Shown piece after piece: positions 54,239 to 60,334 of a stretch of 64,000 bases of DNA; within the stretch, counting starts at the first letter, position 1, and each line of letters begins with the position of its first letter. The stretch is from an uncultured Lachnospiraceae bacterium. Its GTDB lineage: Bacteria; Bacillota; Clostridia; Lachnospirales; Lachnospiraceae. The stretch is taken from assembly GCA_948473115.1 (NCBI GenBank), contig CAOKWI010000005.1, positions 34,574 through 98,573 of the forward strand, read 5' to 3'. The notes under the pieces were generated by a model. The model was given only the letters and a program-made list of their open reading frames with translations, ran no database searches and was not told the DNA's origin. The position numbers and the translations under genes were made by a program.

Positions 54239-55714
54239 TCACGAGTACAGCAGCACCGTCAATGTAAACCTGTTCTCGTCCGCTTCCCAGGACACTCCTC
54301 CCCGATACCTCTCTGCGGCGGCCCGGATATTGTGCAGGCCGATGCCGTGAGCCTCACCATCCGGCTTTGTGGTGGCGGGAAACAGGTTCCCCTGAAGAAG
54401 CTTCAATTCCCCGTTAAAGCTGTTCTCGACAGTCAGGAGGAGCATCCCCTGCCTGCAGCCGGAGTACAGCCGTATGAAGCGCCCTTTCCCGCCGGCATCG
54501 GTCTCCTGCTTTTCACAGGCTTCTATTGCATTATCCAGCGCATTTCCCAGGATGATACACAGGTCGGTAGGCTGAATCCTGCAGTCTTTTGGGATGATCA
54601 GATTCTCCGCCTCAAAACGGATCCGGGAGAATTTTTCACAGGCTTCGTGGTATTTCATGAAAAGAAGGGAATCTACCACAGTGCTTCCGGTCTGAAAGGG
54701 AATATCCAGCTTTCCCAGCGTCCGGCTGAGCTGTCCCAGATAGTCGGACAGCTCAGCCCTGTTCTCCTGCCGTTCCATCAGATTTTCCAGTACTGCCAGC
54801 TGATTCTTCATATCATGCTTCATGGAGCGGACACCGGAATAGATGCGTTCCAGTTCCCTTGCGTGCTCCTCCATGCTGACGACCTGTTTTTCCAGCACCG
54901 CCCTCCTGTTCCGCTCCGCGTTCAATGCCAGCATTTCCTGATACAGCTTCATGCTGTACAGCATGGAAAACAGACAGATGACCAGCAGGATCGGAACAAT
55001 GCCTGTGAGCAGCGGAAACGCCTCAAAGAGTGTCTTGGGCATCACATTCTTGTTGGTAAAGGTAAACATAATGACCCTGAGCAGGGTACACAGCAGGAAG
55101 CTGCTGGCACAGGGAAACAGCAGGAACAGATATTCCGTCTTGTGCAGGGGCAGTTCCCTGCTCTTAAAAATCCTGCACACATAGCGGAATGTGCCATATA
55201 TGACGACAATAAAGATCACCATATACAAAAACTGCTGGAGGATAGCCAGACATTCCATCAGGAACAGAAAATCTTCCGCAGCCACCGTGAAATAATTCCG
55301 TTCAAACCATCGATTCAGAATGTCATATAATGTATTCCAGAAGGCGGAAAATGAAAAAGAGAGAAAACGGCCGGTCTCACTGACTGCCGCAAACAACACG
55401 GTGATCAGAAAAATCTGCTTTTTGCTCCCCTGATAAAGCAGAAAAGAAGACAGCAGCAGAAATCCGTAAATCAATAATTGCTTAAGAAGACTTTTCATGC
55501 TTTCTGCGGGTGAGATCAGATTGACTACCATCAAAGCGTCCATGATCCGTTTCACCACAAACCAAAGGACACCGGGCAGAAAGGTCATCCACCAGGAATC
55601 GGAATGAAATTTTAACCGGAAAAAGTGATGATACAAGAGACATAAAATGGCAGACCATGTGACCTGCGTGAAAATATCGATCACTTCAATGATCAGGTGA
55701 TAAATATCAGACAC
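54239..55714 (-). CDS. GHKL-domain sensor histidine kinase (AgrC-like)
   Basis: Six-TM N-terminus; SMKHDMKNQLAVLENLM H-box; LCIILGNALDNAIEAC N-box; GIGLHNIRAAAERYRG. Confidence 0.92.
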   Translation of the reverse strand: MSDIYHLIIEVIDIFTQVTWSAILCLLYHHFFRLKFHSDSWWMTFLPGVLWFVVKRIMDALMVVNLISPAESMKSLLKQLLIYGFLLLSSFLLYQGSKKQIFLITVLFAAVSETGRFLSFSFSAFWNTLYDILNRWFERNYFTVAAEDFLFLMECLAILQQFLYMVIFIVVIYGTFRYVCRIFKSRELPLHKTEYLFLLFPCASSFLLCTLLRVIMFTFTNKNVMPKTLFEAFPLLTGIVPILLVICLFSMLYSMKLYQEMLALNAERNRRAVLEKQVVSMEEHARELERIYSGVRSMKHDMKNQLAVLENLMERQENRAELSDYLGQLSRTLGKLDIPFQTGSTVVDSLLFMKYHEACEKFSRIRFEAENLIIPKDCRIQPTDLCIILGNALDNAIEACEKQETDAGGKGRFIRLYSGCRQGMLLLTVENSFNGELKLLQGNLFPATTKPDGEAHGIGLHNIRAAAERYRGGVSWEADENRFTLTVLLYS

Positions 55715-56417
55715 AGGAAACTCCTTCCTGCTTCAAATAATTCATATATGCAGTCACAAAATCGTTATATTTTTCCTTGGATAAATAGACGGTTTCCCCA
55801 TTGTGCAAAAGGATGTTGTCCGCGCTGTACTGGGCAATATATGCCATATTTACCAGATATCCCCGATGGCACCGATAAAAACCGTCTCCCAGCAACTCCT
55901 CCATATGCGCCATGGTGGCATAGATGGTTTCTGTCTGGTGGAGGGTGTGGATATCCACCTTGCGCCGACAGTTTTCCACATACAGGATCTCGTTTTTTAA
56001 CAGGGTAAAGCTTCGCGATTTCGTCTGGAAGAAAAGGGATTCTTCCCTGTTGCGGATGCGCCTTCCCGCTTCCTTTACCGCCTCCTGGAACACACTGTTA
56101 AATTTGTCTTTCGCCAGGGGCTTCAGCAGATAATGGAAAGCGGACACGTCGAAGGCTTCAAAAACATATTCCTTTAAAGCAGTCACAAAAATCAGGACCG
56201 TATCTTCTTTCCGCTCCCGCAAGGTTCTGGCTATCTCCATTCCATTCGTGTCGGACATCTGTATATCCAGAAAAAGTATATCGAAATGCTGTCTCTCCGC
56301 CAGAAACTGCTTACCGGAGCAATAGTACAGGATCTGGCTCTCAGGAGCCATTGCCAGGACCAGCTTCTTTATCTGCAGACAGATTTCCTTTTCATCATCA
56401 CAAATTCCTATGTTCAT
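55707..56417 (-). CDS. LytTR-family response regulator
   Basis: MNIGICDDEKEICLQI, DILFLDIQMSDTNGMEIA; LytTR domain GFYRCHRGYLVNMAYIAQYSADNILLHNGETVYLSKEKY. Confidence 0.95.
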   Translation of the reverse strand: MNIGICDDEKEICLQIKKLVLAMAPESQILYYCSGKQFLAERQHFDILFLDIQMSDTNGMEIARTLRERKEDTVLIFVTALKEYVFEAFDVSAFHYLLKPLAKDKFNSVFQEAVKEAGRRIRNREESLFFQTKSRSFTLLKNEILYVENCRRKVDIHTLHQTETIYATMAHMEELLGDGFYRCHRGYLVNMAYIAQYSADNILLHNGETVYLSKEKYNDFVTAYMNYLKQEGVSCV

Positions 56418-56682: not shown

Positions 56683-56832
56683 GATGTTACTGTTCACAGC
56701 TGCGCTGCTCACAGCAACATAATGCACACAAAATGAGCAAAAGACGCTCATTTTGGCGCCCGCAGTCTCGGGTTTTTATGCCCAAAACGCATAAAAACGC
56801 CTTCGCGAAACCGGCTGTGAATAGTAACATAC
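56683..56832. repeat. long palindromic intergenic element (family C, single copy seen)
   Basis: gatgttactgttcacagctg / cggctgtgaatagtaacatac; inner aaaatgagc/gctcatttt and tttttatgc/gcataaaaa hairpins. Confidence 0.8.
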
Positions 56833-56946
56833 TGATACTACACAGTTCAGCCAGTCCATAGAATGGCGGAAAATCATGCTTGCATGAACCTTACGCCGTT
56901 TCCATGGTGCGGGCTGAACCACAACCCACACAGAAAGGAGCACCAA

Positions 56947-59900
56947 ATGAAACTTGAAGAGCAAAGGCACATTCAGGGAACCTCCCGCAGGGACGAGGAG
57001 AAGCACCTGGAAGAGACACTTGATGTAATCCATGCGAACATGGATAGCTATGGTCGTCAGGTTCGGGAAATGAAGGAAAATATCGATGAGATGCTGGAGC
57101 ATTATCACGACGACAATGCGGAGGTGTATGTGATTCTCTGTAATACCATCACCATGCATGACCACATGAAACGGGCTCTGGAGCGGAATGAAAGGGCTGC
57201 GGACAAGCCCTACTTCGGGAGGATCTGCTTCCACGACGAGACCCTGGACAAAGAGGAATCCCTCTACATCGGCAAGGGCGGCATCTCCCGTGATTCCACC
57301 CGGCAGGAGGTAATCGACTGGCGCGCCCCGGTGGCCAACGCCTATTATGAAAACGGACTGGGCAGATGCAGTTATCCCTCCTCCGACGGCGCTCCCCTGT
57401 GGATAGACCTGCAGTTGAAACGCACCTATGAGATCGAACAGGGAAAGCTGCTGGATTATTTTGACAGCGAAGTGATCTCCAATGACGACCTGCTCACCAA
57501 ATACCTGGCAAAGAATAAACAGGCTGTGCTGGGCGAGATTGTTGCCACGATCCAGAAGGAACAGAATGACATTATCCGCAAATCCCCTTACCACAACATG
57601 ATCGTGCAGGGGGTGGCGGGATCCGGGAAGACCACTGTCGCCATGCACCGGATCTCCTTTATCCTGTATAATTATGAGGAACGCTTCCGCCCCAATGACT
57701 TTTATATCGTGGGCAGCAACCGTATCCTGCTGAATTACATCACCGGCGTGCTGCCCAGCCTGGATGTCCACGGCGTACACCAGATGACCATGGAACAGCT
57801 TTTTACCAGACTGCTCTATGAGGACTGGGACGAGAAAAAGTACAGCATCCGCAGAAAGGCCCTGAATATGGATTCCGGGAAAGTGAAGGGAACAGACGGC
57901 TGGTTCCGTCTGCTGGGACAATTCTGCGACAGGCTGGAAAAGGACATGATCTCCACTGATTCCATTTATCTGAATCCCATGCAGTTCGTTGAGGGGATTG
58001 AGAACGGCCGTTCCGGTGTCTATGACAGGAGCGGCGGAAACACACCCGATAAGGGGGCGCTTGTCCCGCTGGTGGACGGACAGGCCGTAGAGCGCTATAT
58101 CCGGCAGAATCCCGGCGTATCCATCCAGAGCAAGATCAATATGCTGAACGAGCGTCTGCTGATCAAGGTGAAGGATGAATTTCTGGGAAAGGGCGTAAAG
58201 TATACGGATGCCGAGCGGAAAGCCATCCTGAAGGCTTACCGGAACCACTATGGCGGTAAGATCTGGAAGCTGTCCACCTACAGGCTTTATGAGGATTTCC
58301 TGAAAGAACGGATTGCCGCAGGCGCGCAGATGGAACTTCCCGGCAGGGAGTTTGACGTTTACGATCTGGCGGCATTGGCATACATTTACAAACGGACAAA
58401 AGAGACGGAGGTGATCAGCGAAGCGCACCATATTGTGATCGACGAAGCGCAGGATTTCGGCATGATGGTATACGACTGCCTGCATTTCTGTATCAAGGAC
58501 TGTACCTATACCATCATGGGGGATGTGTCCCAGAATATCCGCTTCGGATTCGGATTGAATGACTGGGAGGACTTGAGAAGGCTTCTTCTGGCAAACGATC
58601 CCATGTCCAGCTTTGGGATTCTGAAAAAAAGCTACCGAAACACAGTGGAAATCTCTCATTTCGCCACAGATATCCTGCACCATGGGAAACTGGTGAGTTA
58701 TCCGGTGGAACCCATCATTCGGCACGGCGCCTCTGTAAAAGTCCAACAATTCCAGGATGAGAATGAACTGTGGCAGGAGGCTGCACGTCAATGCCGCGAA
58801 TGGCAGGAGAAGGAACTTCCCACCATTGCCATCATATGCAGGGATCAGGAAAGCGCCGGCCGGGCGGCTGCTGAACTGGAAAAACGGATCGAAATTCTGG
58901 AGACAGACCTGGAGAAAGCAGAATTTGGAAACGGGATCATGGTACTTCCCGTGGAATATACGAAAGGACTGGAATTTGACGCGGTGCTGATCTTAAATCC
59001 CACCAGGGAGGAGTATCCCGTGGACGACGGACACGCAAAGCTTCTGTATGTGGCGGCTACCAGGGCATTGCATGAACTTTGTGTGCTGCACACAGGAAAC
59101 CTGACGGGGCTGATCGCGGATCCCGTGCCGGAAACCATGAAAATCATGTATGCATCCGAAATGCCGGAAACCATGAGTACATCGAAAATGCCGGAAGCCA
59201 TGGGGGCATCCGAAACACCGGAAACCACAAGACCACCGGAAAACCCGACTGCATCAGGAAACGCGGAAACAATGAAGCCCTCCTGCGCAAAGAGACCCCG
59301 CCCGGCTGCCGCAAGCCCCTCTGTCAAAGGAAACGTCAAGGTGGCGCTGCCAAAGAACAGTGTATCGCCGTCCCATACTATCCTACAGACATATCAGGCT
59401 GGCAGGAAAACCAATGTCAATAATACCAACTCCGCCGGAGTGTTGGAAAAACAATTTCCCGAAAAGAAAAGAACTGACCCGGTCAGTCAAATTGACCGTG
59501 TCAGCCATCACAGTCTGGAAACCGGACAGCGCTCTTCCGCCAAAGATAAAGCAGTGAAAACCGGCTTTCCGGATTTCGGGGACTATCCTCCTACCGAAAA
59601 ACTGCGCCCCCTGGGGCACAACAGGATCGATCTGGGGGTTCGCTGGGTCACGAAACAGCCGGATGGGCTCTATCTACAGAGCCGATATGGCATCCTGCGG
59701 CTCTCTCCTGTGGGCAGCGGTATTGTGCGGATAACCTTTGCAAAGGGCGGGAAGCTTCTGGATGGCACACATCCCCTGATCCAGGTGCGCAGACTGGAGA
59801 AATTCTGGCTGTATAAGGAATCCGGTCAGATCGTTACCTTATCCACCGATGAACTGTTTCTCCAGGTGGACAAGACCACAGGGGCGATCCGTTACCTGGA

Positions 59901-60288
59901 TCAAGCCAAAAAGCTTTTATTGGCAGAGCGCGGCAGGGAATGCCGGCAACAGGAGGCTTTTCCCGGCGGGGAATTACAATCCTGGCTTTTCCTGGAACCA
60001 TCAAAGAAGGAGCAGCTTTTTGCCGTGGGATCCGGTGAACAAAAGCTTCTCCCGCTGCGGGGAACTGCCAGATATATTTCCAACGCGGGGGAACTGCCCT
60101 TCCTTTTCTCCGATCAGGGTTACGGCATATTGATAGCCTCGGACAGCCCCGTGATCTGCTGTGACCTGCCGGCCTACGGCACTTACCTGCACACGGAAAA
60201 GGAAGCGCAGATGGATTACTATTTCATTAGTGGGAAAAAAACCGACACGCTGATGAATGCATGCCGGTTCCTTCGGGGAGAACTGTGA
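56947..60288 (+). CDS. HelD-like UvrD/Rep superfamily helicase with C-terminal GH31-N-terminal-domain-like extension
   Basis: VQGVAGSGKTTVAMHR, IVIDEAQDFG, GDVSQNIRFGFG, VEYTKGLEFDAVLI, LLYVAATRALHEL; C-terminus resembles GH31 N-terminal beta-sandwich; RBS gaaaggagcaccaaATG. Confidence 0.88.
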   Translation: MKLEEQRHIQGTSRRDEEKHLEETLDVIHANMDSYGRQVREMKENIDEMLEHYHDDNAEVYVILCNTITMHDHMKRALERNERAADKPYFGRICFHDETLDKEESLYIGKGGISRDSTRQEVIDWRAPVANAYYENGLGRCSYPSSDGAPLWIDLQLKRTYEIEQGKLLDYFDSEVISNDDLLTKYLAKNKQAVLGEIVATIQKEQNDIIRKSPYHNMIVQGVAGSGKTTVAMHRISFILYNYEERFRPNDFYIVGSNRILLNYITGVLPSLDVHGVHQMTMEQLFTRLLYEDWDEKKYSIRRKALNMDSGKVKGTDGWFRLLGQFCDRLEKDMISTDSIYLNPMQFVEGIENGRSGVYDRSGGNTPDKGALVPLVDGQAVERYIRQNPGVSIQSKINMLNERLLIKVKDEFLGKGVKYTDAERKAILKAYRNHYGGKIWKLSTYRLYEDFLKERIAAGAQMELPGREFDVYDLAALAYIYKRTKETEVISEAHHIVIDEAQDFGMMVYDCLHFCIKDCTYTIMGDVSQNIRFGFGLNDWEDLRRLLLANDPMSSFGILKKSYRNTVEISHFATDILHHGKLVSYPVEPIIRHGASVKVQQFQDENELWQEAARQCREWQEKELPTIAIICRDQESAGRAAAELEKRIEILETDLEKAEFGNGIMVLPVEYTKGLEFDAVLILNPTREEYPVDDGHAKLLYVAATRALHELCVLHTGNLTGLIADPVPETMKIMYASEMPETMSTSKMPEAMGASETPETTRPPENPTASGNAETMKPSCAKRPRPAAASPSVKGNVKVALPKNSVSPSHTILQTYQAGRKTNVNNTNSAGVLEKQFPEKKRTDPVSQIDRVSHHSLETGQRSSAKDKAVKTGFPDFGDYPPTEKLRPLGHNRIDLGVRWVTKQPDGLYLQSRYGILRLSPVGSGIVRITFAKGGKLLDGTHPLIQVRRLEKFWLYKESGQIVTLSTDELFLQVDKTTGAIRYLDQAKKLLLAERGRECRQQEAFPGGELQSWLFLEPSKKEQLFAVGSGEQKLLPLRGTARYISNAGELPFLFSDQGYGILIASDSPVICCDLPAYGTYLHTEKEAQMDYYFISGKKTDTLMNACRFLRGEL
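59128..59244. repeat. in-frame tandem repeat (27-bp unit x 3 plus a 36-bp variant) in the HelD linker
   Basis: ccggaaaccatgagtacatcgaaaatg and variants; protein PETMSTSKM/PEAMGASET/PETTRPPEN. Confidence 0.85.
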
Positions 60289-60291
60289 CAG

Positions 60292-60334
60292 AAACTTCCC
60301 TGCGTCCTGTTCCAGGATGGGACGCAGGGAAGTT
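60292..60334. terminator. bidirectional hairpin terminator
   Basis: aacttccctgcgtcc-tgttccaggat-gggacgcagggaagtt. Confidence 0.85.

Follow-up and report, generated by a model that had tools for sequence, protein, structure and literature searches.

A HelD-like motor that seems to carry a captured and repurposed glycosidase domain in Lachnospiraceae

HelD removes stalled RNA polymerase (RNAP) and is linked to rifampicin tolerance (PMC10719064, PMC12802891). In the window, by which we mean the whole stretch of 64,000 nucleotides analysed from the contig of an uncultured Lachnospiraceae bacterium, one gene was found to encode a HelD-type helicase that continues into the N-terminal beta-sandwich of family 31 glycoside hydrolases (GH31). 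The locus raises the question of whether such a fusion is a functional chimera or a fossil, between which an earlier note on the sequence had not chosen, and of what a domain of enzyme origin may contribute to a motor of this kind.

The gene and its HelD-like motor

The gene and its immediate signals were located as follows, all on the plus strand.

56947-60288, plus strand: whole gene, HelD motor, disordered linker and GH31 N-domain, 1113 aa, without internal stop
56934-56940, plus strand: ribosome-binding site AAAGGAG, read from the sequence; start codon consistent with homologues
56947-59127, plus strand: HelD-family SF1 motor, aa 1 to about 727, by profile and fold; its end, LTGLIADP, lies roughly where unfused relatives terminate
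57607-57636, plus strand: Walker A QGVAGSGKTT, aa 221-230, from the sequence; invariant or almost invariant across 25 fused homologues
58432-58455, plus strand: Walker B region ..DEAQD, aa 496-503; D499, E500, Q502 and D503 invariant in the 25-homologue alignment
60293-60334, plus strand: intrinsic terminator with a 19-pair stem, between the gene and the convergent hisIE

The start at ATG 56947 is backed by the homologues, which begin at the MKLEEQ methionine; a second in-frame ATG, also open, lies upstream at 56863. Since the 19-pair terminator separates the gene from the convergent histidine gene, it is probably monocistronic. An open frame of 671 aa (56776-58791) runs antisense to the motor. 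A MITE-like element of about 145 bp was noted at 56685-56829, separated by 117 bp from the ATG downstream. Its inverted ends read TGTTACT(G/A)TTCACAG, and it is flanked by a target duplication of 6 bp (TACTGA). Thirteen more near-full-length copies occur in the genome at 95-99% identity, those inspected having flanking duplications of about 6 bp each, and the element was absent from the fetched loci of the related orthologues L028, L029 and L031. It contains a terminator-like hairpin and might affect expression. On the opposite strand upstream (54239-56417), the translations point to a LytTR-type response regulator and an AgrC-style histidine kinase.

We found the assignment of the motor to the HelD type, made in the earlier note, to agree with both profile and fold. 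The best family was NCBIfam HelD_BACSU (E 1.8e-96), at 323.8 bits and thus below the equivalog cut-off of 419, which was also missed by one unfused relative and by other fused members; a second HelD in the genome (L066, a 739-aa open frame) scored above it at 443.4 bits. The motor matched the B. subtilis HelD chain 6wvk_H at E 3.5e-60, and the top Foldseek matches were the HelD structures 6wvk, 6zca and 6yxu (6wvk E 1.9e-33). The SF1 motifs GSGKTT, DEAQD, YRNT, YTKGLEFD and ATRALH are intact, being invariant or nearly so among the 25 fused homologues. The motor model, of moderate confidence, has N-terminal helices at 14-52 and 58-84, where a coiled coil resembling the secondary-channel arm would form, and shows an insertion that separates the two 1A halves, a candidate for the clamp arm.

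With class I HelD (B. subtilis HelD, 6wvk/6zca) the protein shares the SF1 motor and its 2A head and, probably, also a split 1A and a coiled-coil arm at the N-terminus. The difference is that the fused protein joins a small-isoform motor to a linker and a GH31 N-domain, reaching about 1000-1190 aa, whereas the published HelD size classes are approximately 680-720 and 740-850 aa (PMC8655204). Unfused relatives of the fused motor were mostly 680-730 aa long (range 680-849), close to the size that the same paper gives for the small isoform, and for this reason the fused protein may be a specialised small-isoform HelD paralogue. By homology it would bind RNAP and remove stalled polymerase. We know of no direct biochemistry on the small HelD isoforms of Firmicutes.

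A C-terminal domain derived from GH31 enzymes

The remainder of the protein was divided into the following parts, again on the plus strand.

59128-59574, plus strand: disordered, basic linker, approximately aa 728-876, about 150 aa (75-196 aa in homologues)
59151-59227, plus strand: coding minisatellite inside the linker, 27-bp unit x 2.9
59575-59631, plus strand: cap motif FGDxPxTExLRPxGHxRID, aa 877-895, conserved among the fused proteins, unaligned in GH31s
59632-60231, plus strand: GH31 N-terminal galactose-mutarotase-like beta-sandwich, aa 896-1095, by sequence and fold
60232-60285, plus strand: terminal helix equivalent to the GH31 sandwich-to-barrel connector, aa 1096-1113, by 5jou match, alignment and model

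The C-terminal domain (CTD, aa 877-1113) was modelled by AF2 with a pLDDT of 92.7 and a pTM of 0.91. When this domain was searched against the PDB with Foldseek, all 50 matches listed were GH31 enzymes (best E 1e-11; query-normalised TM-score up to 0.77). As a single sequence it matched 5jou (BoGH31A) at E 1.4e-5, across the sandwich as well as the connector that leads to the barrel, and its family profile did so at E 3.7e-16; hhalign against GH31 paralogues of related genomes gave E 6.6e-36 over 220 columns. PF13802 was found in 15 of 28 CTD homologues (best 1.6e-8) and was not matched by the CTD of this gene itself. The proposed GH31 fusion is thus upheld, as is the remark that the protein ends where the barrel would start: it terminates at the connector helix, the catalytic (beta/alpha)8 barrel and catalytic Asp are absent, and the terminator and then the convergent gene follow. 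The two-part layout described in the earlier note also stands, with its extents (approximately 740 and 230 aa) in need of revision, as about 150 disordered aa lie between the parts and the domain runs from approximately aa 877. A subgroup of fused proteins (L036-L043) was noted to lack the terminal connector helix and to end right after the last strand (DYYF).

The earlier note had proposed to look for a full-length GH31 paralogue that would provide the C-terminal part. The same genome encodes two full-length GH31 proteins, each with its own N-domain, and on these grounds a split or decayed enzyme is rejected. A protein search with the CTD found no match to either of the two at E <= 10.

We then compared the fused domain with GH31 hydrolases (PF13802; BoGH31A 5jou, MeXyl31 5zn6), with which it shares the beta-sandwich and the helix connecting to the barrel. 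In the joint alignment (domain numbering), the CTDs retain a GH31-invariant core of P45, R52, E118, E146, G152, Y167, P175, S179, Y183, G202, D214 and F217. In contrast to the enzymes, and beyond the absence of the barrel and its catalytic Asp, approximately 33 residues of the GH31 relatives are missing, and the CTDs have lost residues of the GH31-invariant GLGQ (150-153) and HQxN (169-172) stretches, which we take to lie at the active-site side in GH31 structures. Net charge was found to be reversed, ranging without overlap from +2 to +14 in 60/60 CTDs and from -5 to -16 in 16/16 GH31 N-domains (211 shared columns; the rows are related by descent, so that a p-value here is not one of independent tests). 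Five positions are basic in at least 90% of CTDs and not in GH31s (R899, K933, K957, K1020, R1042), and H15, R124 and C196 (domain numbering) are conserved specifically in the fused domain. Net charge by itself hints only weakly at nucleic-acid binding. Because active-site-side residues invariant in GH31 are lost and the charge is reversed, these alignments do not support a sugar-binding role, and the description of the domain as a carbohydrate-binding-like module was not retained.

Distribution, origin and selection

The same architecture was identified in about 60 homologues from at least 26 genera of Lachnospiraceae. It was present in 19 of 36 same-genus genomes, the source genome not counted; a family-wide sample of 397 genomes contained it in 33, belonging to 26 genera, which was confirmed on HelD ORFs. 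Outside Lachnospiraceae, samples of 392 genomes at order level and 399 at phylum level yielded no fused architecture, the matches there being GH31-like frames without the cap region. A motor of this type (E <= 1e-60) occurs in 67 genomes of the family sample, about half of which are fused by open-frame length. One genome (G418) carries fused and unfused HelDs of one subfamily together (L130 and L150), a pair suited to comparison inside a single strain. An assembly or prediction artefact is ruled out by the spread over 26 genera and by the presence of the architecture in one complete genome, AP025576.1 (L031, Lachnospiraceae bacterium CE91-St56), as well as in the single-contig genomes G006 and G106. 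In two homologues (L117:5779-8887 and L032:100-3508), the motor and CTD lie in different, overlapping frames; the offset, near the linker, may be a frameshift, a sequencing error or programmed slippage.

In a motor tree that includes 27 unfused relatives, the 57 fused motors formed one clade (SH-aLRT 98, quick method), with the nearest unfused HelDs branching successively below it in a ladder-like manner. The 60 CTDs likewise formed one clade against 16 GH31 N-domains (100/99; 200/200 bootstrap trees), and the same two large subgroups were recovered in both trees. Comparison of the tails indicated that unfused proteins stop about where fused proteins enter the linker, and loss of the domain was seen in 0 of the 57 fused-clade motors. 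With the fused motors as one clade and unfused HelDs as its successive sisters, the pattern fits one fusion event and mainly vertical descent, alongside which some transfer between genera may have occurred. A first tree with fewer unfused relatives had required two changes, as under multiple independent fusions or repeated loss; this was dropped when 17 unfused relatives were added and two distant HelDs omitted, which gave one fused clade.

Among informative related pairs (Nei-Gojobori), omega was 0.07-0.16 for the motor, 0.08-0.20 for the CTD and 0.14-0.62 for the linker; the very close pair L123/L125 gave no information on the CTD (dS 0.01), and saturation affected several distant pairs. Purifying selection acts on the CTD as it does on the motor; the linker drifts. 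The domain has been carried for a long evolutionary time across Lachnospiraceae. Neither absence of a GH31 N-terminal fold, nor restriction to one assembly, nor a neutrally evolving C-terminus was found, the grounds that the earlier note had named for giving up its proposal.

Possible roles of the captured domain

The linker is predicted to be disordered (pLDDT about 30 in the full-length model) and is basic in most members, while the motor is acidic; it is predicted to serve as a flexible tether. The position of the CTD relative to the motor is left unfixed by the full-length model (pTM 0.38), so that docking of the GH31 N-domain on the motor itself is possible. PcrA, an SF1 motor, binds RNAP through its Tudor domain, which sits at the C-terminus behind a long disordered linker (PMC8318588). 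The fused protein resembles PcrA/UvrD in that its SF1 motor, which would likewise act at RNAP, is followed by a long disordered linker and a C-terminal beta domain; it differs in that the Tudor fold is unrelated and that RNAP binding, demonstrated for PcrA, is a proposal for the fused HelD.

From the charge and the analogy to PcrA, we propose, with a probability of about 0.5, that the glycosidase domain has been put to new use as a docking arm that reaches the transcription complex on a flexible tether. The motor would be a lineage-specific HelD (a small class I isoform) that, judging by its homologues, acts as an ATP-driven remover of stalled RNAP. The trees support that once, in an ancestor within Lachnospiraceae, a GH31 N-terminal beta-sandwich was appended, by some rearrangement, behind the native C-terminus of the motor. 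The captured domain has retained its fold, lost the residues serving the vanished active site, gained a conserved N-terminal cap and turned basic. The arm, on its linker of 75-196 aa, would grip nucleic acid of the stalled complex or, alternatively, an acidic surface of RNAP or of a partner, and may recruit the motor or hold it in place. The delta subunit, the helper of B. subtilis HelD, is generally absent from Clostridia (PMC7749167, PMC8655204), and it is conceivable that the CTD compensates for it; the existence of unfused HelDs in the same family speaks against the need for such a substitute.

A basic domain inherited together with an acidic motor could also be expected if the CTD packs on that motor and has a structural or autoinhibitory function in its own protein. 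We consider this unlikely, as the linker is long, unconserved and variable in length, and the modelled inter-domain arrangement is not confident (pTM 0.38). Somewhat less probable again is a sensor role, in which a sugar or other small metabolite would turn the motor on or off and so tie carbohydrate supply to RNAP recycling. The domain descends from part of a carbohydrate-active enzyme, GH31 enzymes are encoded in related genomes, and H15, R124 and C196 are conserved specifically in the fused domain; however, it no longer has the residues on the active-site side that do not vary in GH31 relatives, its net charge has changed sign, and no constant neighbourhood, carbohydrate genes included, was found across the 48 loci compared. 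The GH31 N-domain is itself not the catalytic sugar site. The wider notion that a recycling motor of gut bacteria senses carbohydrate or metabolite through its captured glycosidase domain, coupling nutrient state to the removal of stalled RNAP, appears slightly more doubtful still.

Non-functional baggage left by a fossil fusion could be argued from the two members with motor and domain in different frames (L032 and L117), but it is highly improbable against an omega of 0.08-0.20 in informative pairs, the 26 genera carrying the architecture and the retention of the domain in all 57 fused-clade motors. Of the two outcomes entertained in the earlier note, the functional chimera is therefore favoured by breadth of occurrence (at least 26 genera), purifying selection, single-origin trees and the lack of loss, and the fossil is not.

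No prior description of a HelD with a GH31 N-domain was found in the open-access papers searched. The protein thus seems to be a HelD-like motor with a captured and repurposed glycosidase domain, apparently undescribed within that literature, in which part of an enzyme seems to have found a second use as a binding arm on a tether. It looks like a clear case of an enzyme accessory domain that was parted from the catalytic half and taken into new use with its charge reversed. The reason that some bacteria retain several HelD isoforms has been called unclear (PMC8655204), and a conserved, glycosidase-derived extra domain on one isoform offers a handle on HelD isoform specialisation in a major gut family.
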